From: a virus
Strand: one strand, 5' to 3'
IMG/VR virus record: IMGVR_UViG_3300025703_000014
Span: 1 to 28,829 of that record
Length of the DNA: 28,829 bases
Shown one piece after another: positions 5,023-22,098 of the stretch. Position numbers and translations under genes: made by a program. The stretch's first letter is position 1. Each line of letters starts with the position of its first letter. Below the pieces are notes generated by a model that saw only the letters and a list, made by a program, of their open reading frames with translations, was not told where the DNA came from and searched no databases.

Positions 5023-5590
5023 GCTCGCTGGCGAAGACCTTACCCCGCAGCTCGGGTGAGCGGGCACCCGGCTTCGACGGGTCGATCGGCTCCAGTCCGG
5101 ATTTAGTATCCTTCAGGTCGCGGGCCTCGTCCATCGCGCGGTGGTAGTCGGGCGCGGCGAAAACGACCCGATTACGGACCAGATCGCTATGCTTGTTCTG
5201 ATCCAACCAACACTCCCACAGGTCGCGCGGAACGCCTTGGTTAAGCATATAGCCCCCGACGATACCCTCGGGTAGCTCGCCAATACGGCGATACGCGGCG
5301 TTGTTGGCGACCGGGCCACGGATGGTGTGCGTCTCGCCGGTCGGTTCCCACAGGGCGTATTTTTGGGTGCCTCCGCCCATGACCTCTCGCGTCGCCTCGG
5401 TCTTTACGAACCCGCGAAGAATGATGCCTGGACCGTACTTGCACGCCACGGTAACGGTGTCCGTCCCGCTGACCGGCGCTGAAGGCGGCGTAGGAGTGGA
5501 AACGAAAGCTGGAGCGCCGCGGGCGTCGGTAGGCTCGCCCCGCTGGATCGGCGTCGGTACGCCCTTCTGGGGAGGTTGCTGCTCGGCCAT
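4997..5590 (-). CDS. Structural-region protein downstream of major capsid, paralogue of next gene
   Basis: 197 residues, starting 3 nt after the capsid stop with GGGGAT upstream. The N-terminal 35 residues are proline-rich and probably disordered (QQPPQKGVPTPIQRGEP, PTPPSAPV). A strand-rich core follows (VTVACKYGPGIILRGF, IVGGYMLNQGVPRDLWECWLDQN). The C-terminal 50 residues are charged. Proteins of this design occur right after DUF2184 capsid genes in related phages as I recall, without known function. The core matches the next gene product, indicating duplication. Confidence 0.6.
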   Translation of the reverse strand: MAEQQPPQKGVPTPIQRGEPTDARGAPAFVSTPTPPSAPVSGTDTVTVACKYGPGIILRGFVKTEATREVMGGGTQKYALWEPTGETHTIRGPVANNAAYRRIGELPEGIVGGYMLNQGVPRDLWECWLDQNKHSDLVRNRVVFAAPDYHRAMDEARDLKDTKSGLEPIDPSKPGARSPELRGKVFASEHAPGARAA

Positions 5591-5593
5591 CGG

Positions 5594-6706
5594 TTAAATC
5601 CCCACCATCGATCCGATCGCAAACGGCTGGCGGATCACGGTGCCCCACGCGCCGGCCGAACGCTTCTGGCGGTACGAGGACGTAGCCGGGATCAGCCGAT
5701 GGGTGCGCATCCGGTCGGAATACGCAGGGGTCGCGGTCTTCTGCGTGGCGACCTCGGGCACGACGATCTGCATCAGATTGCCGGCCGCGATGCCCTGCGG
5801 GGTGGTCGCGCTGATCGCCGAATACTCCTGGATGCCCGTGATGATCTTCAGGTTCGGGTACGCGTCGGACAACAGGCCCTTAACGTTCACGCCGAACGAG
5901 TTGGCCGCGGTCACCGCGTTCCCGACCGAAGCGGGGATGCCCAGATTCATTGGCGAATCGGTCGTGATGTTGCCGTTACCCTGCGAGATGACCTGACCGA
6001 CGGTCGATTGGATGTCGGTAAAAATCTCGTTCGGGGTAGCCTTGATAACGCCGCCGACGGTCCACGCCGTCCCGCCGTACGCCTTGACCGCCGGGGTCAG
6101 GCTCGCGCTCAGGTCGGGGTCATTGGTCGAGCCATAGTTCTGCAGCCCGTTGACGCCGAAGGCGTAGATGTAGTTGAGCTGCCGCATGAGGATGTATGCG
6201 GCAGAGTTCTGCTTGTTGATGACGACGTTGTAGTTCGCCGTCGCGCCGCGGGCCACTTCGAGGTCACCATACGAGATGTTGGTCTCGAAAAGATAGTTCT
6301 CGCGCTGCGGCCAGTTGGCGTTCGCCGTCGACACGCCGGTCTCGGCGTAATCGTCGTAGGACGCGGTCTCGCCCACGAACTCGTTCGTCGGGAACATCGC
6401 GGAGATCATCTCCCATGAGCCGCGCTGCTCCTCGCCGCCGAACAGCTCGGCCACCTTGAGCGTCGCGAACAGGATGTCGAACGTTTTCGGATCGACGATG
6501 TTCACGAACTGCATCGGGACGCCCGCGTTCGGCTCGGTCGTCAGCGCCGGCAGCGCGTCCATCGCGATGCGATGTTGCGTGCCGCGCTTCGGATTGTCCG
6601 ATACGTACAGCATTGGCTCGGTGCCGGGCTCAAAGCGGACGCCCTTGACCTCGTCCAGCCACGGCAGGTGCGCCCGCATCGCGGCGAGCGACTGTTGAAG
6701 TTCCAT
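5594..6706 (-). CDS. Major capsid protein, DUF2184 (HK97-fold)
   Basis: 370 residues with a good AAGGAAA ribosome site. The start (AMRAHLPWLDEVKGVRFEPG), the FGGEEQRGSWEMISAMFPTNE block and the C-terminal LMQIVVPEVATQKTATPAYSD then RTHRLIPATSSYRQKRSAGAWGTVIRQP match my knowledge of DUF2184 major capsid proteins. Hundreds of copies build the icosahedral head. It follows the cement protein, with an endonuclease gene wedged between. Length is normal and no cleavable N-terminal scaffold domain is obvious, in keeping with separate protease/scaffold genes upstream. Confidence 0.85.
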   Translation of the reverse strand: MELQQSLAAMRAHLPWLDEVKGVRFEPGTEPMLYVSDNPKRGTQHRIAMDALPALTTEPNAGVPMQFVNIVDPKTFDILFATLKVAELFGGEEQRGSWEMISAMFPTNEFVGETASYDDYAETGVSTANANWPQRENYLFETNISYGDLEVARGATANYNVVINKQNSAAYILMRQLNYIYAFGVNGLQNYGSTNDPDLSASLTPAVKAYGGTAWTVGGVIKATPNEIFTDIQSTVGQVISQGNGNITTDSPMNLGIPASVGNAVTAANSFGVNVKGLLSDAYPNLKIITGIQEYSAISATTPQGIAAGNLMQIVVPEVATQKTATPAYSDRMRTHRLIPATSSYRQKRSAGAWGTVIRQPFAIGSMVGI

Positions 6707-6728
6707 GTCGTAATTTCCTTCTGTTCTG

Positions 6729-7472
6729 TCAGTTACACACCGGGGTAGTTGTAGTATCGAGTTGACGTAACGTTTTGCGCTTATGCCAACCTCGTCGTTT
6801 AGTCATTCCTCTTCGCCATCCCGGCGGTATATCGTTTTCGCTCTTAGCGTACTCGTTACGAATACCGTCAGTAATTCGTATCTGACCCATTCGCACTTTA
6901 CTTTGATTAGTGCGCCATTCTTGATTTTGCCAAGAACGTAAGGCGGCTTGTCTGTGATGTTCTCTAGTTTCCAAAGAAGGATTTTTCTTACCCTTGCTTA
7001 CATTCTCACAAAATTCTGGCGAACGCTTATAACCCGTAAGTTTCGCTACTCGTTTTGCGATCGTTTCGGCAGATGGATTTGTCACAGAGGCGGCGATACG
7101 CGCGCGCCATTCCGGTGTTCTCACCCGACTACTGGAAATCTCTCCAAGTCTTTTACGGAGATCGTCAGTAGGGTTCAAAATCCCAGAACCGCCGCCAGAA
7201 ATATTAGCTAACACGACACCAGCAGCACGTAATTCAGCTATCCGACCAATCTCCCAAAGATTAGCTTCGGCACGCGTTTCGACTTGTCCGATTATCTTAA
7301 TAATCGGCTTTAAGCTATACCAAGACAATTCTTCGACAAAAGCGTGATGAAACCGGTTGCGTTTAACTATATCTTCTGGACGCCCTTCAATCCCAATACC
7401 TACGTAAAAAGGGATATTAAAATCAGGACGCCAGTGTTCATATAGATATTGGCAACCGGTTCTTCTTTGCAT
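6729..7472 (-). CDS. GIY-YIG-type homing endonuclease with NUMOD3-like repeats
   Basis: 247 residues. Residues about 9-45 give a variant GIY-YIG core (YLYEHW, then PFYVGIG), with the expected glutamate in LWEIGRIAE (E74). Short helix-turn repeats follow (TPEWRARIAAS, SPEFCENVSKGKKNPS, TREHHRQAALRSW), as in NUMOD3 DNA-binding modules. It starts directly after the cement protein stop (TAAATG) and precedes the capsid gene, a classic free-standing homing endonuclease position. Base composition is visibly more AT-rich than the capsid genes either side, which supports recent transfer. It is probably dispensable for virion assembly. Confidence 0.75.
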   Translation of the reverse strand: MQRRTGCQYLYEHWRPDFNIPFYVGIGIEGRPEDIVKRNRFHHAFVEELSWYSLKPIIKIIGQVETRAEANLWEIGRIAELRAAGVVLANISGGGSGILNPTDDLRKRLGEISSSRVRTPEWRARIAASVTNPSAETIAKRVAKLTGYKRSPEFCENVSKGKKNPSLETREHHRQAALRSWQNQEWRTNQSKVRMGQIRITDGIRNEYAKSENDIPPGWRRGMTKRRGWHKRKTLRQLDTTTTPVCN

Positions 7473-8456
7473 TTACGGAAGACGACTGATCTTTACGATT
7501 TCGCCGACAGCGCCGGAACTCTGACAATACCAACTAGTTTCGACGTTAATCGCCGCGACCGTGATGGTAGAGCTGGTTACGGTCTGTGACGGGTCTACCG
7601 CGAAGGTGCCGCCGGTGCCGCCGGTGCCGGTGAGCAACTGCGTGAGCACCGAGCCGGCCGTCACGCCGCCGCCGCCCGAACCGGCGATCACGTCGTTGAC
7701 CGCGAAAACGCCGCCCGTAACGGTGCCCAGCGTAAGGGTGCCGTACGCGCCGGTGATCGTGGTCGAGAGCGCGGCCTGCTCGCCGATACTGACCGAGTAG
7801 GTGCCGACGCCGCCGGCCGTGCCGCTTAGCTGGGTGACGACCTTGGTGCCGGTAGCGACGTTCGTGCCGCTGAGCGTGGCACCCTTGACGATCGTGCCGG
7901 AGCCGACGGCCGTGACGGTCATCACGTCACCGCTGATCGAACCCGTGACCGAGAAAGTCGAGGCAGCGATCGACGAGGTGGCGCCGCTCGCGCCGGTCGA
8001 CGGCGAGCCGGTCGCCGCGAAGCTGACTGAGCCGTCCGCGAAGGTCGCATAAGCCTTCTGACCGATCAGCGCCTGGGTCGAACCGCGGTTGACGACCCAA
8101 CGGTCGCCGGCCGTGATCACCGCGCACGGGAGCCCCGTGGGGAGCAGCAGCGAGGCTTCCTTCAGGAAAACCGAGATCAGCCCCTGAAGATGGTTCCCGA
8201 TGATGCCGAGCGGAACGCCCGTACCGTAGTTGTTGACGATCGTCGGCTGGTTGTCGAGGTCGACCGACGTGTAGTCGGCCCAGACGAACCGTCCGACGAG
8301 AACGCCACCGTCGTTGGCGCCGTCGTTGCCGGCGATCATGCCGAACGGCCCAGCGGGATAATAATAGGTGGGATTGAAGCTGGCCGGCGACCCCTCCATC
8401 CCCGGCGCGGGAACTTGGTTGACTTGGGACTGGAAAGCCTGACTGATCTGTGCCAT
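7473..8456 (-). CDS. Structural cement/decoration protein with beta-module insertions
   Basis: 327 residues, GGAG ribosome site. The N-terminal half (NPTYYYPAGPFGMIAGNDG, FVWADYTS, TGVPLGIIGNHLQGLISVFL) and the region IGQKAYATFADGSVSFA look like the cement/head-stabilising proteins that precede DUF2184 capsid genes. From about residue 165 come two glycine/threonine-rich modules (SVTGSISGDVMTVTAVGSG and GTLTLGTVTGGVFAVND, each ending in a TGG/GGVGT then SQT-like phrase) before the cement-like C-terminus (ETSWYCQSSGAVGEIVKIS). Removing the modules leaves a protein of about 190 residues. Confidence 0.7.
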   Translation of the reverse strand: MAQISQAFQSQVNQVPAPGMEGSPASFNPTYYYPAGPFGMIAGNDGANDGGVLVGRFVWADYTSVDLDNQPTIVNNYGTGVPLGIIGNHLQGLISVFLKEASLLLPTGLPCAVITAGDRWVVNRGSTQALIGQKAYATFADGSVSFAATGSPSTGASGATSSIAASTFSVTGSISGDVMTVTAVGSGTIVKGATLSGTNVATGTKVVTQLSGTAGGVGTYSVSIGEQAALSTTITGAYGTLTLGTVTGGVFAVNDVIAGSGGGGVTAGSVLTQLLTGTGGTGGTFAVDPSQTVTSSTITVAAINVETSWYCQSSGAVGEIVKISRLP

Positions 8457-8477: not shown

Positions 8478-9371
8478 TTAGGCCGCGCTGACAGCGAAGA
8501 AGTCTTCGGGAGCCGGGACGCCGGCCGGCAACAGCGCGCGGTCCGCCGCCAAAGGCACGGAGCGGGCGCTTGATACCTTGGCAACCACGTCGTACAACGG
8601 CTCCAACGCGGCGTCCGGCACGTCCTTGACCGCGACGCCCTTCATCTCCAGCGCCTTGCGGAACACGGCCGGGGCCGAATCGCACGCCGCGCGGATTTCG
8701 CCGACGGCCGGGCGAACCTTCGCCAGAGCGTTGGCGATGGACGTGTGCCGCGCGTCGTTGGCCGCGAGGGCCGCGCCGATCGCGCTGTCCATCGCCTTTT
8801 TGTCGATCATGTTCTCCGGCATCGCGCCCTTGCCCTTCTTCATCACCATCTCGTCATGGGCGCTCATGCCTTCGCCCATGATCTTTTCCAGCGTGGCGCA
8901 ATCCTCAGGCGACATCTTCCCCGCGCAGAACTCCTTGACCTTCGCGATCATCGGATCGTCGTCGCGCGCCTCGTCGTCGTCGACTTCCTCGTCCGGGTCA
9001 TCGTCGTCCTGGCCCGGCTTAGCGGCGCGCGCGTCCGATTCCTCCATCGGGATCGCGGCGTTCGCCTTCAGGTCTTCGGTGCCGCCGCCCTCGCCCTCCG
9101 ACGCCTCGTCGATGAGCTTCTCGGCGGCCTCGATGACCTCGATCACGTCGTCCACGTCGGCGTCCTGCGCCAGACGACCGGCCACGGCGGCCTGGATCGC
9201 GGTGGCGATGCCCGTCCGCTGGGTGATGCGGTTCGTCTTCGGGGCACCCTTGAGGATGTCGCCGAGGTTCGGGAGCTTCGTGTCGGCCGCCATGCGCGGG
9301 GCCAGGTAGATGGTCAATGCGCCGCGGAGCTCACGGGCTGCGGGCGACAACTTTACGGGCTTGTTAGCCAT
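8478..9371 (-). CDS. Scaffold-like protein, probable C-terminal part of a DUF2213-type protease/scaffold
   Basis: 297 residues from the ATG at 9369-9371 (AAGGAAA site), which fits better than the farther upstream ATG at 9530. The N-terminus (KLSPAARELRGALTIYLAPRMAAD) and RLAQDADVDDVIEVIEAAEKLID match what I recall from the C-terminal region of DUF2213 head proteins. A very acidic middle (DDDDPDEEVDDDEARDDDP) and helical remainder fit a capsid scaffold. It stands downstream of the protease gene, separated by a small ORF and a homing endonuclease, so it may once have been closely linked with the protease. Function is inferred from composition and order. Confidence 0.6.
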   Translation of the reverse strand: MANKPVKLSPAARELRGALTIYLAPRMAADTKLPNLGDILKGAPKTNRITQRTGIATAIQAAVAGRLAQDADVDDVIEVIEAAEKLIDEASEGEGGGTEDLKANAAIPMEESDARAAKPGQDDDDPDEEVDDDEARDDDPMIAKVKEFCAGKMSPEDCATLEKIMGEGMSAHDEMVMKKGKGAMPENMIDKKAMDSAIGAALAANDARHTSIANALAKVRPAVGEIRAACDSAPAVFRKALEMKGVAVKDVPDAALEPLYDVVAKVSSARSVPLAADRALLPAGVPAPEDFFAVSAA

Positions 9372-9440
9372 GTCGTCGGTTTCCTTACGATGTGGTTGTC
9401 GCCGCGTTAGAAGACCCACGCGGTGGGGGTTTAGCGGTGA

Positions 9441-9489
9441 TTTCCATGAAGAAGGTCGGCCGAGTAACTGCCGATCTTCTTCATGGAAA
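9441..9489. repeat. Strong 20-bp inverted repeat (hairpin) between head genes
   Basis: Arms 9441-9460 and 9470-9489 match at 19 of 20 positions (the exception can form a G-U pair in one RNA strand) with a 9-nt loop. There is no T-run on either side, so it is not a standard intrinsic terminator. A 20-codon ORF begins inside the left arm (leftward ATG at 9446-9448) and stops just before the scaffold gene's ribosome site. It could be an RNA processing or translation-control element. Confidence 0.6.
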
Positions 9490-9507
9490 CGGAGCGGACT
9501 TTTCCGG

Positions 9508-9873
9508 TCAACCCAACCGCCCTTCTGCAATGTTCTTTGCTATAGCTGGCGTAATTCGGCCGGCCCCGGATGATGGGCCAGAGTTCTTGGACGAGGTTTT
9601 CTTATAATTTGTAAGTGGTGGCGAGCTAATACCCGCACTTCCATTCAAACGAACTTCCGTCTTTAACTTAGATACTGGGTGTTCGTAGTGGTGCGACCCG
9701 GTTTTATCGTCTCGACCTTTATGCTCATGCCCAGCTTCAGTAAGATGGGTGTGCGCCTCAGACTGGCCTGAAGTAAACTGGCCAGAATGTGGATCGTGCT
9801 TAATCTCGTCCTGCGCCATCCCCGCCATATCGGCCCAGCGGAAACCCTCGCGGGCGAATAGCTTGCTCGGCAT
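9508..9873 (-). CDS. Small head-region protein carrying a duplicate of the DUF2213 C-terminal motif
   Basis: 121 residues from the ATG at 9871-9873, chosen because GGAG lies 8 nt upstream; ATGs at 9891 and 10011 lack good sites. It begins PSKLFAREGFRWADM, and the codons just before read GDSAM, so the stretch repeats the C-terminus of the protease on the far side of the homing endonuclease (GDSALPRKQF then GFRWSDL). The rest has an HDPHSGQFTSG linker motif and is polar and histidine-rich (AHTHLTEAGHEH). It looks like the displaced C-terminal piece of the protease gene, or a fragment reborn as its own gene. No function is known. Confidence 0.5.
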   Translation of the reverse strand: MPSKLFAREGFRWADMAGMAQDEIKHDPHSGQFTSGQSEAHTHLTEAGHEHKGRDDKTGSHHYEHPVSKLKTEVRLNGSAGISSPPLTNYKKTSSKNSGPSSGAGRITPAIAKNIAEGRLG

Positions 9874-10017
9874 GGCGGAGTCTCCAGACATCTTTCGATT
9901 TACTTTCAGCGGGTTACGGGCTATAATCTCTATCGACGCGGCTAGGGTCTGCAGCCCGAAAGCCTTCTTTCTTGCCAAGGAAGTTGCCGCGTCATTCCTT
10001 GGCGGGAGCATGGCAAG

Positions 10018-11028
10018 ATGCCGCAGAAACTCGATTCCCGTACCATCTACTACACCTATATCCTGTTCGATTGGCGCGGCACCCCGCGCTATGTCGGAAA
10101 GGGTAAAGGCAACAGGTGGTTAGGACACGAACAAAGCACCGATCCGAATAACCCGATGAAGAACGAGTTCATCGAACAGACCTGGACGGTAATGGGAGAA
10201 ATCCCAAAGATAAAAGTTCAAGAAAACTTGAACGAAGGCGACGCTTTTACGCTTGAGGGTCTTCTAATAAAAGCCATCGGACGTCATCCTAACGGCCCTC
10301 TCGTAAACCTGACCGACAAACGAAACGGGCCTAGTAGCGAGCGTATTCGGGCTTGGCACGCTTCGCGAACGCCGGAAGAGAGAAGTGCTAGTGCTCGGAA
10401 ATCGATAGCGACACTAGGGCCGGAAGGAGTTAAGCGGCGCGGACAACGTGAAATATCGGACGATGAGCGAAATTTACGGGCCGAAAGAATGACTAAGACG
10501 CTGGCCTCGTTTACTCCAGAACAACGAAGAGCTAACGGAATCCTAGGTGGAAAAGCTGCTTCACTAGTAACTACACTAGAACAGAAAAGGGAACGAGCTA
10601 AGAAAATGCTAGAAACGTACTTAGCTTCTACTACTCCAGAAGAAAGATCAGAAAACTATAAGCGGAGCGGAATAGCTAAGCTCACTACAGAACAACTTAG
10701 CGAAAACGGAAAGAAGGGCGTAGCCAAGGCAAATGCGTCAAGAACTCCAGAAGAACGGAAAGAACTAGCCAGCAAGGCTGTAACAGCACTCCATGCTTCG
10801 CGTACCCCTGAACAACGCCAGGAAATGGCGCGGCGCGCCGGTTTAAAAGCGGCAGAATCTAGGACATTTGAATCCTATAGTGACGCCGCCCGTAAACGGG
10901 CTAAGACTGTAGGTAAAGAACGTTTAAGCGAAATCGGTAAAATTGCAGGAAGCGCCCCTCGCCGTCCGTGGGGCTCAGTTAAACGCGCATCCAAGAAAGA
11001 TCCGACCAACGAAACCCCGGACGAATAA
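10018..11028 (+). CDS. GIY-YIG homing endonuclease with multiple NUMOD3-like repeats
   Basis: 336 residues, on the strand opposite to the surrounding head genes, with GGGAG upstream. The catalytic domain reads YYTYILFDWRGTPRYVGKGKG at residues 11-31, with the expected glutamate in TLEGLLIKAIG (E80). About eight helix-turn repeats follow (phrases such as RTPEERSASARKS, FTPEQRRANGILGGK, STTPEERSENYKR), typical DNA-contact modules of GIY-YIG homing enzymes. Its last 50 bases overlap the 3' end of the protease gene on the other strand. The gene is AT-richer than neighbours. It likely cuts phage genomes lacking the insertion and spreads by repair. Confidence 0.85.
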   Translation: MPQKLDSRTIYYTYILFDWRGTPRYVGKGKGNRWLGHEQSTDPNNPMKNEFIEQTWTVMGEIPKIKVQENLNEGDAFTLEGLLIKAIGRHPNGPLVNLTDKRNGPSSERIRAWHASRTPEERSASARKSIATLGPEGVKRRGQREISDDERNLRAERMTKTLASFTPEQRRANGILGGKAASLVTTLEQKRERAKKMLETYLASTTPEERSENYKRSGIAKLTTEQLSENGKKGVAKANASRTPEERKELASKAVTALHASRTPEQRQEMARRAGLKAAESRTFESYSDAARKRAKTVGKERLSEIGKIAGSAPRRPWGSVKRASKKDPTNETPDE

Positions 11029-13180
11029 ACTGCTTACGAGGCAACGCTGAATCGCCGACCATAACGGAAGGTCCGCATCTCCCGTCTTCAACAAGCGCAA
11101 TGTGATTGAATCGTAGCGCGCGCATCACACCATCGTAGACTTCGCCTTCCGGCGTAACCCCTGGCGTCATATCTGCGTCATAGCGATAGCTCGCGCTGAG
11201 CTGACGACGATCGTCATTCTCGATATCATCGATTGCGTCTTTGGTATAGAATACCAAAGAGTTGCGCAAAAACGGAGCGTCGAAGGTTGCATCTGACCCA
11301 GTAGAGCCGATTACCAAATCGGTCGGATGGTCCTCGGCGGTCGAAGGTTTGTGTTCGTCCAAGATCGGAATACTATTTGCGGTATCAACCGCCTTGGAAA
11401 TTTCTTCTGGATCTCTATAAAGGCGATACACCTTTTTAGGATCAAGCGAAAGATTTTCCCATTCAGGTATCTCAGAGCCCAGATACGGATTCACCGCAGC
11501 CTTGCTGATATTCGCCACCGAAACCCGCAACCGCCCGTCGTGGTCGACTTTGCGCACGGTCTCCTTATCGAAAGCCACGCCCCCAACCTGCCGGCTGTCC
11601 AGGATCAGGTGGATACGCCCCGGCGCGCGATCTGCGGCTAGGACCAGCGCGGTGTCGCCGCCGGGGATTTTATCCTTAGATTCTGCAGCCCTAAGAGAAT
11701 TATGCATGGTACTAAATAATCGTTCGCTTTTATCTAAAGGATATTCAGTAACCGAGGTTTTTCCTTTATATTGTTGTTCACTATTATGGTTTATTACTTC
11801 ACCAGAGGGACCGTGAGTAATACTGTGGATAGAAGGATGAACACCTTTTTTACCAAAGAATGTTGGTTCTTTAACCGTATATTTCTTTTCCCCTTGAGAG
11901 GAAACAGGGCCGCGAGTTGCGATGTGTCCACTTTTTAGAGTTACGGTCCCACCAGACGAAGTAAATTGTCCGTTACTAGGATCATGCGCAGTTCCTGCGT
12001 CCTTAGCTCTAGGGAACTCCCTCCCCCGAATCTCATCCGCCCGGCGCGCTAAATCGGTGCGTCCGTGCATACGGGCTCGGCGCGCCGCGGCCAAAAGCAA
12101 ATCACGATCGTACTTGCCGTCCTTCTTCACCGGGTATTTCTTCTTATCCGGCAGCAGGAAGTCGCTCTCGGGGAGCGATTCGCGTTGCTTGGAGTTTACG
12201 CGACCTATCTCGGTGCGGGTGGAAGTGGGGAGATGACCTTCGTGTTCTTCCTTAGTCTCTGGGAATTCGTCTTTAGCCCGACCAGAAGAAACGCCAAGCC
12301 CATCGCTCTTGGCGTTAGCTTCTTCGGATTTCTTGAAACGATTTAGCCGATAGCCCTCGTGCGCAGTACGCGCCGTCTCGTGCGCGGCCATAGCCCCTCG
12401 AATGAGGAGCTTCCTGGGCTGTACCCCGTACGCTTCCGCTCTCGGCGATACTCTTTGCTTAGCGCCCATCGAAATATGATGCGAAGCTGAAGCAAACTTA
12501 CCGCTGTTATCACGTTGTTGTTCAGCATCCTCTGCCATCTTCGCCCGAGCCTTAGCGACCAGATCATCCAACGCTGGGTGCCTCGGCTCGGGCATCTCGT
12601 CCGGCGCGAACCATTGGTGCTCCGTGTGTTCTTCGGAAAGCCTAGGCGAAAACTCGTCCTTAGCGCGGACCAGGAACGTCGTATGATCCCAGCCCATTGG
12701 GGTCTTCTGCGCGTGGAGGGGCGACATATCGTCAAGTGCGCAATCGCCGACCTCTTCGCGCGTCTCCCGCGCAGCGCAGTCCTCGGCCGTCTCTTCGCCG
12801 TCGGCCTTCCCGCCGGGCAAGCCCCACTCGCCCGCGCGGTAGTCATCGGTCGGGGAGCGTTTCAGCAGCAGAACCTTGCCGGCTGGGCTCATGAACAGGA
12901 CGGAAGCTGCTTTACCGGAAGGGTCGGCGGCGTCCTTAGCCAACCTCGGCGCGATGAACCCGGTGATCTTGTCGAAGAACCGTGTTACCGCGCCCATCAC
13001 GCGGTCCTCGGCGTGCTCCGGCTCCTGACGCTCCTCCTTGATCCACTCGCCGAACAGACGGTCGAGTTCATCCCACTCCGGGCCAGCCATGTCCGCCGCG
13101 TCTACGCCGCTGATCTTTCCGGCATTTTTGGAAGCGTAAAAGACCTGCTCGCCGCGCTTAGCTCCATAAGAGCGTTGCAT
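10979..13180 (-). CDS. NUDIX hydrolase fused to DUF2213 head maturation protease-like domain
   Basis: 733 residues. The first 40 residues (YGAKRGEQVFYASKNAGKISGVD) are a short motif common in phage head-region proteins. Residues about 90-210 are a NUDIX hydrolase with box G124-x5-E130-x7-R138-E139 then EEVGD. A long polar linker has two G[QK]F phrases (DNSGKFASASHH, HDPSNGQFTSSGG) and an AT-rich stretch. Residues about 520-709 are DUF2213 (DSRQVGG, IPILDEHKPS, LSASYRYDADMTPG, RFNHIALVEDGRCGP), thought to be the prohead protease. The C-terminus ends abruptly in a motif repeated across the endonuclease insertion. The ATG start lacks a good ribosome site. Confidence 0.75.
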   Translation of the reverse strand: MQRSYGAKRGEQVFYASKNAGKISGVDAADMAGPEWDELDRLFGEWIKEERQEPEHAEDRVMGAVTRFFDKITGFIAPRLAKDAADPSGKAASVLFMSPAGKVLLLKRSPTDDYRAGEWGLPGGKADGEETAEDCAARETREEVGDCALDDMSPLHAQKTPMGWDHTTFLVRAKDEFSPRLSEEHTEHQWFAPDEMPEPRHPALDDLVAKARAKMAEDAEQQRDNSGKFASASHHISMGAKQRVSPRAEAYGVQPRKLLIRGAMAAHETARTAHEGYRLNRFKKSEEANAKSDGLGVSSGRAKDEFPETKEEHEGHLPTSTRTEIGRVNSKQRESLPESDFLLPDKKKYPVKKDGKYDRDLLLAAARRARMHGRTDLARRADEIRGREFPRAKDAGTAHDPSNGQFTSSGGTVTLKSGHIATRGPVSSQGEKKYTVKEPTFFGKKGVHPSIHSITHGPSGEVINHNSEQQYKGKTSVTEYPLDKSERLFSTMHNSLRAAESKDKIPGGDTALVLAADRAPGRIHLILDSRQVGGVAFDKETVRKVDHDGRLRVSVANISKAAVNPYLGSEIPEWENLSLDPKKVYRLYRDPEEISKAVDTANSIPILDEHKPSTAEDHPTDLVIGSTGSDATFDAPFLRNSLVFYTKDAIDDIENDDRRQLSASYRYDADMTPGVTPEGEVYDGVMRALRFNHIALVEDGRCGPSVMVGDSALPRKQFIRPGFRWSDLSWMRV

Positions 13181-19474: not shown

Positions 19475-20318
19475 CTAGGTCTTTTTGGCTCATCTGTCTA
19501 ACGTCGCTCACCACGAGCATCTTGCGATCGATGAAGTACCCTTGGTGTTTGGCGATCATCTCGCGGGCCGCGTCCTGGTCCCGCATCATCATCTCGTAAC
19601 CGTTGGCGGTGACCCGGACGCCCTTGTACAGCAGCGCCGCGGTCGGGCTTAGCTTTCGCGTGTCGTGGAAGACGATGTGCGGGACGCCGTGACCATGGCA
19701 TTTAGGACACGTGTGATCGCACGTGGTTTCCACTTCCGCCTCGGGTTTACCTCGAAGGCTCGCTACACGCTGCATAAATTCGGCGTAATCGGGACCGCGA
19801 CACGGGTCGCGGTTGATCGTATAACCACCACCGCCCTGGTCATCGAACTCGATGCGCTCGTGCTCAGGGAGCTTCATCTGACGGATACGGTGCGCGTTGG
19901 TCGCCTCGCGAAGCTCTACGTCGTCGAACTGGTAAGAATGATCGTGGCCCCAGCAATGGCGACAAGGGACCATCCAGTGTTCGCTTAGCTCGCGGGGGTC
20001 GGCCTGCTCCAGCAGAAGCCAGCGTCGAAGGACGTAGTCTTGCGTAACCCCGACGCGGTCCGACCGGCCCCGGAGGCGGGCCATGAACGCGTGGTGAACG
20101 TGCGTGCGTTTCAGCAACGCCGCGCCGTCGGACCGGTTCGGCAGCCCGGCGCGGATCGCCGCCTCGGGCGGCTCCATGTCTATCATCAGCTCGTCCAGGA
20201 ACCGACGCTCCACGGCGTCGAGCTCGCGGGGAAGGCGGAGCGTCGTCGCGCCGGGGGCGGTGTAGCGGACCAGTTTGCCTTTTGGGCCTGGGGCGGGACG
20301 GCGTTTTGAGGGGGGCAT
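19362..20318 (-). CDS. terS: Terminase small subunit with Cys-rich segment
   Basis: 318 residues. After a basic N-terminus comes a DNA-binding region typical of phage small terminases (ERRFLDELMIDMEPPEAAIRAGLPNRSDGAALLKRTHVHHAFM). Two cysteine/histidine groups follow: CRHCWGHDH near residue 119 and CDHTCPKCHGHGVPH near residue 192, which could bind zinc. Then comes DTRKLSPTAALLYKGV. Small subunits select the packaging site and load the large subunit. The start ATG overlaps the upstream HNH stop (TAATG). Order before the large subunit confirms the role. Confidence 0.8.
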   Translation of the reverse strand: MPPSKRRPAPGPKGKLVRYTAPGATTLRLPRELDAVERRFLDELMIDMEPPEAAIRAGLPNRSDGAALLKRTHVHHAFMARLRGRSDRVGVTQDYVLRRWLLLEQADPRELSEHWMVPCRHCWGHDHSYQFDDVELREATNAHRIRQMKLPEHERIEFDDQGGGGYTINRDPCRGPDYAEFMQRVASLRGKPEAEVETTCDHTCPKCHGHGVPHIVFHDTRKLSPTAALLYKGVRVTANGYEMMMRDQDAAREMIAKHQGYFIDRKMLVVSDVRQMSQKDLDAALSAQIEYLGAIPGVERVDVLDEASVGGEPAPEDA

Positions 20319-21043
20319 TACTGCGGGACCGGATTACGGCGCCTACCAAATTGAGGGGCGCGAAAGTCGTCACACTTTTCTTTTGGTGGAAACAATTTAT
20401 TATGAAGTTCGTTATAACGAGCCACTCGTTCACTAACGAAGTCGGGTTTACGTTCGGCCCTAGGCTCAGCTTTCAGTTTAACACTATTTTCATGAACGAC
20501 TTGATAATACTCTTGGGTATCATCTACGTCAGAAATCCAAAAACGTTTGATGCTATTAGTCTTATGAGACAAAACTTTTATAGAAAATCCGTCAGACCAA
20601 ACCACTACTCCACTATATTTAACAAATTCCTTTCGCAGTGAAACGATCTTTCCATACGGATAAAGCTTCGTATCTAACAAAACAACAGTTTTGTCGTCCC
20701 TTTCTCTGCGCTTTCTATCTAAGAGAGGGCCGTAGGAATGACCGACTGGTAAAGAATCTAAACGATCTCTCCAATAGATCAAACATTTACCTGGAGCTTT
20801 TCTACCCTTTATCCACTCGATCATAGTTCTAGCATTCTTACTAGAATTGCAAGAACGACACATCGGTTGCAAATTACTCTGATCATTAGAACCTCCCCTT
20901 ATTCTGGGGATTATATGATCTATCGAGTACGTGGTAAAGGTGAGATAAACACCACAACCAGCGCACCGACAAGCTAATCGCGAGCTTGTGCGCGAGGTCA
21001 TCGGTTTCGGTATAGGTGGTGAAGAATTGGAAGGTCTTAGCAT
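20318..21043 (-). CDS. HNH homing-type endonuclease
   Basis: 241 residues. A zinc-ribbon HNH core is clear at residues 27-70: CAGC, YSIDHIIPRIRGGSNDQSNLQ, then CRSCNSSK. The remaining 170 residues are basic and unassigned and may bind DNA. The gene is AT-rich against GC-rich neighbours and stands directly before the small terminase, a frequent place for HNH genes in phages, where some also assist packaging. The last dozen residues (RAPQFGRRRNP) are GC-rich in coding and closely match the C-terminus of the NusG-like protein. The start has no good ribosome site; M15 is an alternative. Confidence 0.75.
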   Translation of the reverse strand: MLRPSNSSPPIPKPMTSRTSSRLACRCAGCGVYLTFTTYSIDHIIPRIRGGSNDQSNLQPMCRSCNSSKNARTMIEWIKGRKAPGKCLIYWRDRLDSLPVGHSYGPLLDRKRRERDDKTVVLLDTKLYPYGKIVSLRKEFVKYSGVVVWSDGFSIKVLSHKTNSIKRFWISDVDDTQEYYQVVHENSVKLKAEPRAERKPDFVSERVARYNELHNKLFPPKEKCDDFRAPQFGRRRNPVPQ

Positions 21044-21482: not shown

Positions 21483-22001
21483 CTACCGCCAATCCAAAGG
21501 CCACTTCCGCACGCGGCGCAGCGATGACGACGTGAGATATCGGCCCCGACCCCATTTGACGCCGAGGGGCTTAAGCGCCTCGCGCAACTCGGGATACCGA
21601 ATGTCGCACGCGTCCGAATCATTCTGCTTGATCTTTTGTTCGCGCGTTTTCGCAAAGGCGAGCAGCGCCGCATTGACCGCGTCCTGGGCCGGCTTTTGGT
21701 TTGTCGAGGCAGCCCTCGGCGGCTTTGGCTTTCCGAACAGCTGCTCAATTTGCCAGCGGAGTACCTCGAAGTGCAGCCGCGGCTCGTGTTTCAGACCGAG
21801 CGGCCCGAGCCGCGGCGGTATGTATTCCCCGCGAAATTCGCCGTTGGGCTCCTCTATGACCCGCGTGATAGTTTCTCGCATGGGGACATAGCCCAACTCC
21901 CACGCCTTCCTCAGACGGCTCTCGGCCACGGCGGGCGGTATCGCATACTCCCGGCATTGCCACTCCACCGCCGCATCGTCGGTAATCCACTCTTCTTCCA
22001 T
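21483..22001 (-). CDS. Hypothetical protein, possibly DNA-binding
   Basis: 172 residues from the ATG at 21999-22001 (AGAAGG 8 nt upstream), preferred over a GTG two codons earlier. It is charged and mostly helical; the N-terminus (WITDDAAVEWQCREYAIPPAVAESRLRKAWELGYVP) and the C-terminus (ELREALKPLGVKWGRGRYLTSSSLRRVRKW) are basic enough to contact nucleic acid. No family is recognised. It belongs to the leftward string of small genes under the NusG-like gene. Confidence 0.6.
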   Translation of the reverse strand: MEEEWITDDAAVEWQCREYAIPPAVAESRLRKAWELGYVPMRETITRVIEEPNGEFRGEYIPPRLGPLGLKHEPRLHFEVLRWQIEQLFGKPKPPRAASTNQKPAQDAVNAALLAFAKTREQKIKQNDSDACDIRYPELREALKPLGVKWGRGRYLTSSSLRRVRKWPLDWR

Positions 22002-22098
22002 GTTCACACCTTCTGCCCGATGCCCTGCGATGATCGGCGGGGAAGCGCGCGCAGAGATCGCGCTTGTCGGCTGGCCGGCCTATCCCCGCCGAAGTCGA

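Follow-up and report, generated by a model that had tools for sequence, protein, structure and literature searches.

Phage endonucleases of the free-standing kind are mostly reported either from the gaps between genes or as the cause of split genes; what, then, has happened where the end of a phage gene is found twice, once on each side of such an endonuclease gene? The question is raised by the virus record IMGVR_UViG_3300025703_000014, a linear stretch of 28,829 bases, the whole of which is referred to here as the window. Its minus strand carries, in order, the genes for the portal, a NUDIX-DUF2213 head maturation protease, the scaffold, a minor head protein, and the major head protein, and the gap between protease and scaffold holds a GIY-YIG endonuclease gene on the plus strand. 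We consider it probable that a homing cassette arrived with a protease end of foreign origin (copy 1, the present end of the gene) and displaced the native end together with its extension (copy 2, on the far side of the endonuclease).

The last 27 codons of the protease gene (11062–10982, minus) recur at 9891–9811, beyond the opposite-strand GIY-YIG gene, with 15 of 27 residues and 45 of 81 nucleotides identical, and with the same codon at 2 of the 12 identical residues that have a choice of codon; the first-pass annotation, which had reported two tails with 13 of 20 residues in common and strongly diverged codons, was exact on both counts. With copy 1 as the query and all 27-codon stretches free of stops in the six frames of the window as targets, copy 2 scored 81 and the runner-up 25, against a null mean of −28 (standard deviation 10.7; z = 10); tblastn of the protease tail against the window gave copy 2 an E value of 6.6e-9, and a search across the whole record independently returned the same location. 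The duplication is more than chance. The homology between the copies begins at two ATGs, at 11062 and 9891, and copy 2 lies within an open frame of 127 residues whose start may be ATG 9891 or, as had been proposed from the sequence, ATG 9873, which follows a GGAG (9885–9882) at a distance of 8 nt. The open reading frame (ORF) with copy 2 has no Pfam or PHROG match, and it has no relative in searches of viral contigs or of phages.

On the other side of the endonuclease, the protease ORF runs unbroken into copy 1, in phase with the gene core. The DUF2213 profile is covered from end to end (1–167 of 167) within this one ORF, at residues 543–711 (E = 1.3e-45), which leaves the catalytic region undivided, and the NUDIX match has an E value of 1.5e-19. 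In PHROG 2229, a family that covers both parts, the protease corresponds to positions 7–186 and the scaffold to positions 200–410, the scaffold gene proper being a further ORF (9371–8478) that is distinct from the one with copy 2.

How the locus looks when no endonuclease is present can be seen in the sole close relative found, IMGVR_UViG_3300028558_000051 (L035), whose protease, scaffold, and major head protein are 61%, 58%, and 69% identical to those of the window, the scaffold being 56% identical in a separate comparison. Its protease ends in MVGDAALKKSVMRKDFRWADLPAMAR followed by a stop, a single tail reading FRWADLPAMAR at its close, and a gap of about 60 bp, with no endonuclease in it, separates the protease from a scaffold gene of its own. 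Because L035 shows this state, the tail is taken as native to the lineage and single, and the scaffold as separate without help from an endonuclease. We therefore retain from the first reading the insertion of an endonuclease at the end of the protease gene, with two diverged end copies here and one in endonuclease-free L035, and abandon the idea that the scaffold owes its separate gene to the endonuclease: the protease and scaffold parts are fused in most of the first 32 relatives, but six relatives (L035, L042, L046, L047, L062, and L063) have two genes with no endonuclease between them. Among the relatives examined, none that lacks the endonuclease was found to have two genes each bearing the motif. 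The GFRW motif is absent from relatives other than L035, and no second copy of the tail was found in the other relatives scanned, the second scan excluding ten repeat-rich Acetobacteraceae prophage loci. Two related Acetobacteraceae prophages, L025 and L039, carry dispersed repeats of ~136 bp, at about 6050–6400 and 9070–9500.

The endonuclease lies flush between the copies, and three observations support its having come as part of one element (Table 1): its ORF overlaps copy 1, a promoter-like site starts 8 bp from copy 2, and in-silico excision of 9892–11062 joins the flanks as one open frame of 833 residues through GFRW into the SGQF extension, a continuous frame like that anticipated for phages without the endonuclease. 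In two distant relatives, L046 and L043, the protease continues uninterrupted into a comparable C-terminal extension (HPRDKSGQFTS or HKRDQGGKFSS) after a GDS-type junction, with no endonuclease there, and this arrangement models the state before insertion. Copy 2 fixes the left edge of the element; on the right, the element could reach further into the protease. The gene product matches PF22945 (LEM-3-like GIY-YIG) over residues 25–117 with E = 3.5e-9 and 37.3 bits against a cut-off of 27, holds the motifs YVGKGKGNR, LEG, and VNLT, and is a putative nuclease. It is free-standing, having its own ORF on the opposite strand and being missing from the corresponding site in L035. The GC content at third codon positions (GC3) of the gene is 0.43, compared with 0.65–0.89 in the window's other structural and packaging genes; a search of viral contigs returned no relative, and in phages just one 29%-identical protein was found, in Achromobacter phage Motura.

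Which of the two copies is native was judged mainly from codons. At residues identical to those of the L035 tail, the same codon is used in 8 of 10 cases by copy 2 and in 5 of 11 by copy 1, the background for the whole protease being 123 of 327; GC3 is 17/22 in copy 2, likewise 17/22 in the L035 tail, and 10/23 in copy 1, whose codon usage is more endonuclease-like than 98.9% of the 27-codon stretches of core genes; and nucleotide identity to the L035 tail is 53/78 for copy 2 and 46/78 for copy 1. The test of which copy is native gives Fisher P = 0.016 for codon sharing and 0.033 for GC3, values obtained from 20-odd codons and several comparisons. Codons, GC3, and the overlap of the endonuclease with copy 1 favour copy 2 as the native end, with moderate confidence and short of proof. 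A conversion tract upstream of copy 1 was considered and rejected, there being no step in the sliding codon identity to L035 and GC3 being lowish in L035 too.

Several points count against copy 2 being native and against the cassette built on it. Residue identity to the L035 tail is near equal (14/26 for copy 1, 13/26 for copy 2), and the test of nativeness is weak because the copies span just 27 codons. Low-GC3 codons also occur in the protease at 11063–11515, in the extension after copy 2, and in the protease core of L035, so that composition does not mark the edges of the element. L035, the only close relative, is without the SGQF extension. Lastly, the fungal gene hybrids compared below often keep their endonuclease in phase (PMC3630166), whereas the phage endonuclease is on the opposite strand.

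The divergence of the copies had been ascribed to deliberate recoding against the nuclease, which is neither shown nor needed. Under synonymous saturation, one endonuclease-style and one phage-style end would be expected to share 3.4 of 12 codons, close to the 2 observed (P = 0.29 for 2 or fewer), and two phage-style ends 6.0 of 12 (P = 0.011); since mixed codon styles predict such a number, recoding need not be invoked. A possible second recoded gene end, the last 28 codons of the decor gene (7473–7556, beside an endonuclease gene at 6729–7472), has a GC3 of 13/26 versus 252/294 in the body of the gene (P = 5e-5), but it was dropped and is not claimed because there is no accompanying drop in codon identity to L035 (10/23 vs 101/213).

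The sequence of events that we favour would begin with a free-standing GIY-YIG homing endonuclease entering the protease gene close to its end, at the codon that precedes MxGDSA. The DNA of the element would have brought the diverged last 27 codons, copy 1, and fused them in frame onto the resident protease core, leaving the protease intact; copy 2, the native end, would have been pushed with its 100-residue extension beyond the endonuclease, where it would now be a short separate ORF or a relic. Since almost all synonymous sites of copy 1 depart from the native sequence, a target in the native end would plausibly be lost from the carrier. The carrier would then escape cutting there, and native alleles of co-infecting phages would remain open to cutting and to repair from the carrier. 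The foreign origin of copy 1 and the direction of insertion we infer; the duplication, its position flush around the endonuclease, the divergence of the copies, and the one-tail relative without an endonuclease are observed.

The same locus can be read in reverse, with copy 1 native and the endonuclease, copy 2, and the extension coming from another phage and inserted behind the protease stop. Such an account has in its favour that copy 1 directly continues the protease core and forms the present terminus of the protease, that the L035 gene likewise stops just after FRWADL, and that the extension following copy 2 is AT-richer than the head genes and without a known relative; the larger share of L035 codons and the phage-like GC3 of copy 2, the endonuclease-like character of copy 1, and the physical overlap of the endonuclease ORF with copy 1 speak the other way, and we regard it as unlikely. 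It is also conceivable, at rather longer odds, that GDSA...GFRW is a functional signal (e.g. a capsid-targeting peptide) gained by a separate small gene, the endonuclease being incidental: its residues are kept despite saturated synonymous sites, and copy 2 is within an open 127-residue frame with a plausible start, but no other relative scanned has a second tail, and the similarity starts within 8 bp of the promoter-like site of the endonuclease.

Two further accounts fare worse. That ordinary mosaic exchange, by two recombinations at gene ends, left a partial duplicate without involvement of the endonuclease seems to us very improbable, in that the duplication borders directly on the endonuclease at each of its edges; phage genomes do recombine often, the protease is already mosaic with low-GC3 inserts (11681–12010), and the two explanations are hard to separate because nucleases are known at exchange boundaries (PMC10448857). 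Least probable of all, and scarcely credible, is a group I or II intron that splices the protease to copy 2 and leaves copy 1 as the unspliced alternative end: free-standing and intron endonucleases overlap in type and the joined frame would be correct, but no group I or II intron family gave a match at any threshold in 9400–11300, copy 1 is exon-like and ends in a stop, and the endonuclease is antisense. The displacement of a native end by a cassette with its own protease end remains our preferred reading.

The cassette would also have its own means of expression. The consensus scan found one promoter-like site, against 0.7 expected by chance, and a transcription start 7–8 nt past it would coincide with the first base of an RNA that resembles the int-alpA family. 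This RNA matches RF02996 with 32.5 bits against a gathering cut-off of 35.8 (E = 2.2e-4 in the local search, 0.0034 for the whole window), and is named int-alpA-like only because of a score under that cut-off. The first 60–66 bases of the leader are predicted to fold in the int-alpA shape (−25.5 kcal/mol), and a longer leader to favour a hairpin that pairs a GGGAG situated 9 nt 5′ of the endonuclease AUG, with the first four of these bases less than 5% unpaired. In this fold model the alternative structure would hide the ribosome-binding site of the endonuclease; T4-type endonucleases are known to be controlled by hairpins that conceal this site (PMC2988022). Compared with shuffled sequences the leader fold is not unusually stable (z = −1.3), and the proposed control therefore rests on family match and position. 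Taken as a whole, the notion of a homing cassette that moves between phages by substituting its own 3′ gene end, with a promoter, an antisense endonuclease controlled by an int-alpA-like leader with two mutually exclusive folds, and a synonymously diverged end that would preserve the function of the host gene and protect the carrier from the enzyme, is offered tentatively and is less likely than not.

A second int-alpA RNA occurs in the window at 22023–22090 (minus), just upstream of an ORF at 21483–22007, with 44.7 bits, above the curated cut-off. In related phages, int-alpA-like RNAs (24–37 bits) follow closely on the major head protein gene, ahead of the gene that comes next, and given these positions members of the family may serve as leaders or intercistronic elements outside the int/alpA setting as well.

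The arrangement finds its nearest likeness in the mORF gene hybrids of fungal mitochondria, namely Allomyces atp6 and Glomus atp6, atp9, cox2, and nad3, in which the inserted ends are diverged and the native ends close to those of relatives (PMC3630166). As in those hybrids, there is, on the favoured reading, a gene core followed by an inserted, diverged C-terminal end, then an endonuclease (of the GIY-YIG type in atp9), and then a displaced native end (PMC3630166); unlike them, the gene is that of a phage head protease and not a mitochondrial one, and donor and relatives are here too far removed for the native end to be nearly identical. As the record is a phage and not a mitochondrial genome, the case works like an mORF hybrid and is not a member of that group. 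Phage genes split by free-standing endonucleases include Aeh1 nrdA with mobE, T4 gene 60 with mobA, and phage 25 gene 43 with seg43 (PMC2988022). The likeness to the Aeh1 nrdA type lies in a free-standing phage endonuclease in an essential gene and a downstream piece that is its own ORF; in that type, however, the coding region is cut in two and both parts are needed, whereas here the catalytic domain is whole and the lost end replaced, and the review's text on split phage genes makes no mention of a duplicated gene end (PMC2988022). Islands of homing endonuclease genes in phage structural operons, where endonucleases bracket terminase, protease, and capsid genes, are described in passages of PMC10448857, which contain no description of gene-end duplication; the window, with three endonucleases (6729, 10018, and 20318), resembles them as there portrayed. 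The layout is thus well described in fungal mitochondria, and no phage case of a gene end duplicated around an endonuclease was found in the open-access literature.

A partial parallel comes from the relative L045, in which a GIY-YIG gene of PHROG 314 (5487–6728, minus) occupies the same protease–scaffold gap, opposite in strand to the protease and overlapping its 3′ end antisense by 121 bp; it has no detectable sequence similarity to the endonuclease of the window, and L045 is without a duplicated tail. The gap may be a favoured insertion site, which this one parallel is insufficient to show.

Table 1. Positions of the duplicated protease end, the putative element, and associated features (window coordinates unless a relative is named)
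Feature	Coordinates	Strand	Basis or remark
Copy 1, present 3′ end of the protease, MVGDSALPRKQFIRPGFRWSDLSWMRV followed by stop	10979–11062	minus	Probably foreign and element-borne; codon usage
Copy 2, MSGDSAMPSKLFAREGFRWADMAGMAQ	9811–9891	minus	Probable displaced native protease tail; GC3, codons in common with L035
ORF with copy 2 and a 100-residue extension containing KHDPHSGQFTSG	9508–9891	minus	Open 127-residue frame
Putative element (1171 bp) with promoter, leader RNA, endonuclease, and foreign protease end	9892–11062		Copy homology, flank joining
Promoter-like TTTACT-17-TATAAT for the endonuclease	9899–9927	plus	Consensus scan
int-alpA-like RNA, endonuclease leader; overlaps alternative hairpin pairing the ribosome-binding site	9935–10006	plus	RF02996, folds
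GIY-YIG endonuclease, convergent with protease; last 50 bp antisense to copy 1	10018–11028	plus	PF22945
Head maturation protease (NUDIX near N-terminus; ends with copy 1)	10979–13180	minus	Pfam, PHROG 2229
Scaffold gene, separate from protease as in L035	8478–9371	minus	PHROG 2229
int-alpA-like RNAs in relatives	L069 1501–1567, L071 1501–1566, L072 1501–1570, L073 1501–1570		Also L068, L074 (opposite strand)

Other features of the window are recorded for completeness. The protease insert at 11681–12010 has a GC3 near 0.2, in a gene already mosaic with low-GC3 inserts, and a motif of the type DP-SGQFTS/GNAGQFG stands at the start of what look like inserts or extensions in several of the head genes (12510, 11970, 9790, and 15700, minus). 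Between the ORF with copy 2 and the scaffold gene is a very stable hairpin (9425–9495, minus; −31.9 kcal/mol, z −6.95) with 19-nt arms, one mismatch, and no T run. The gene at 6729–7472 (minus), between the genes for the minor and major head proteins, is a second likely GIY-YIG gene, and an HNH endonuclease gene of low GC3 (0.33) at 20318–21043 (minus) directly precedes the gene upstream of the large terminase.

Should ordinary mosaic exchange be the cause, the duplicated end would be a minor curiosity. If the cassette reading is true, a cassette that brings its own gene end would explain both the harmless invasion of an essential head gene and the resistance gained at the same time; it would link elements of phages to the mORFs of fungal mitochondria, and it would supply a signature to look for throughout phage genomes, namely an endonuclease flanked by diverged direct repeats of a gene end.

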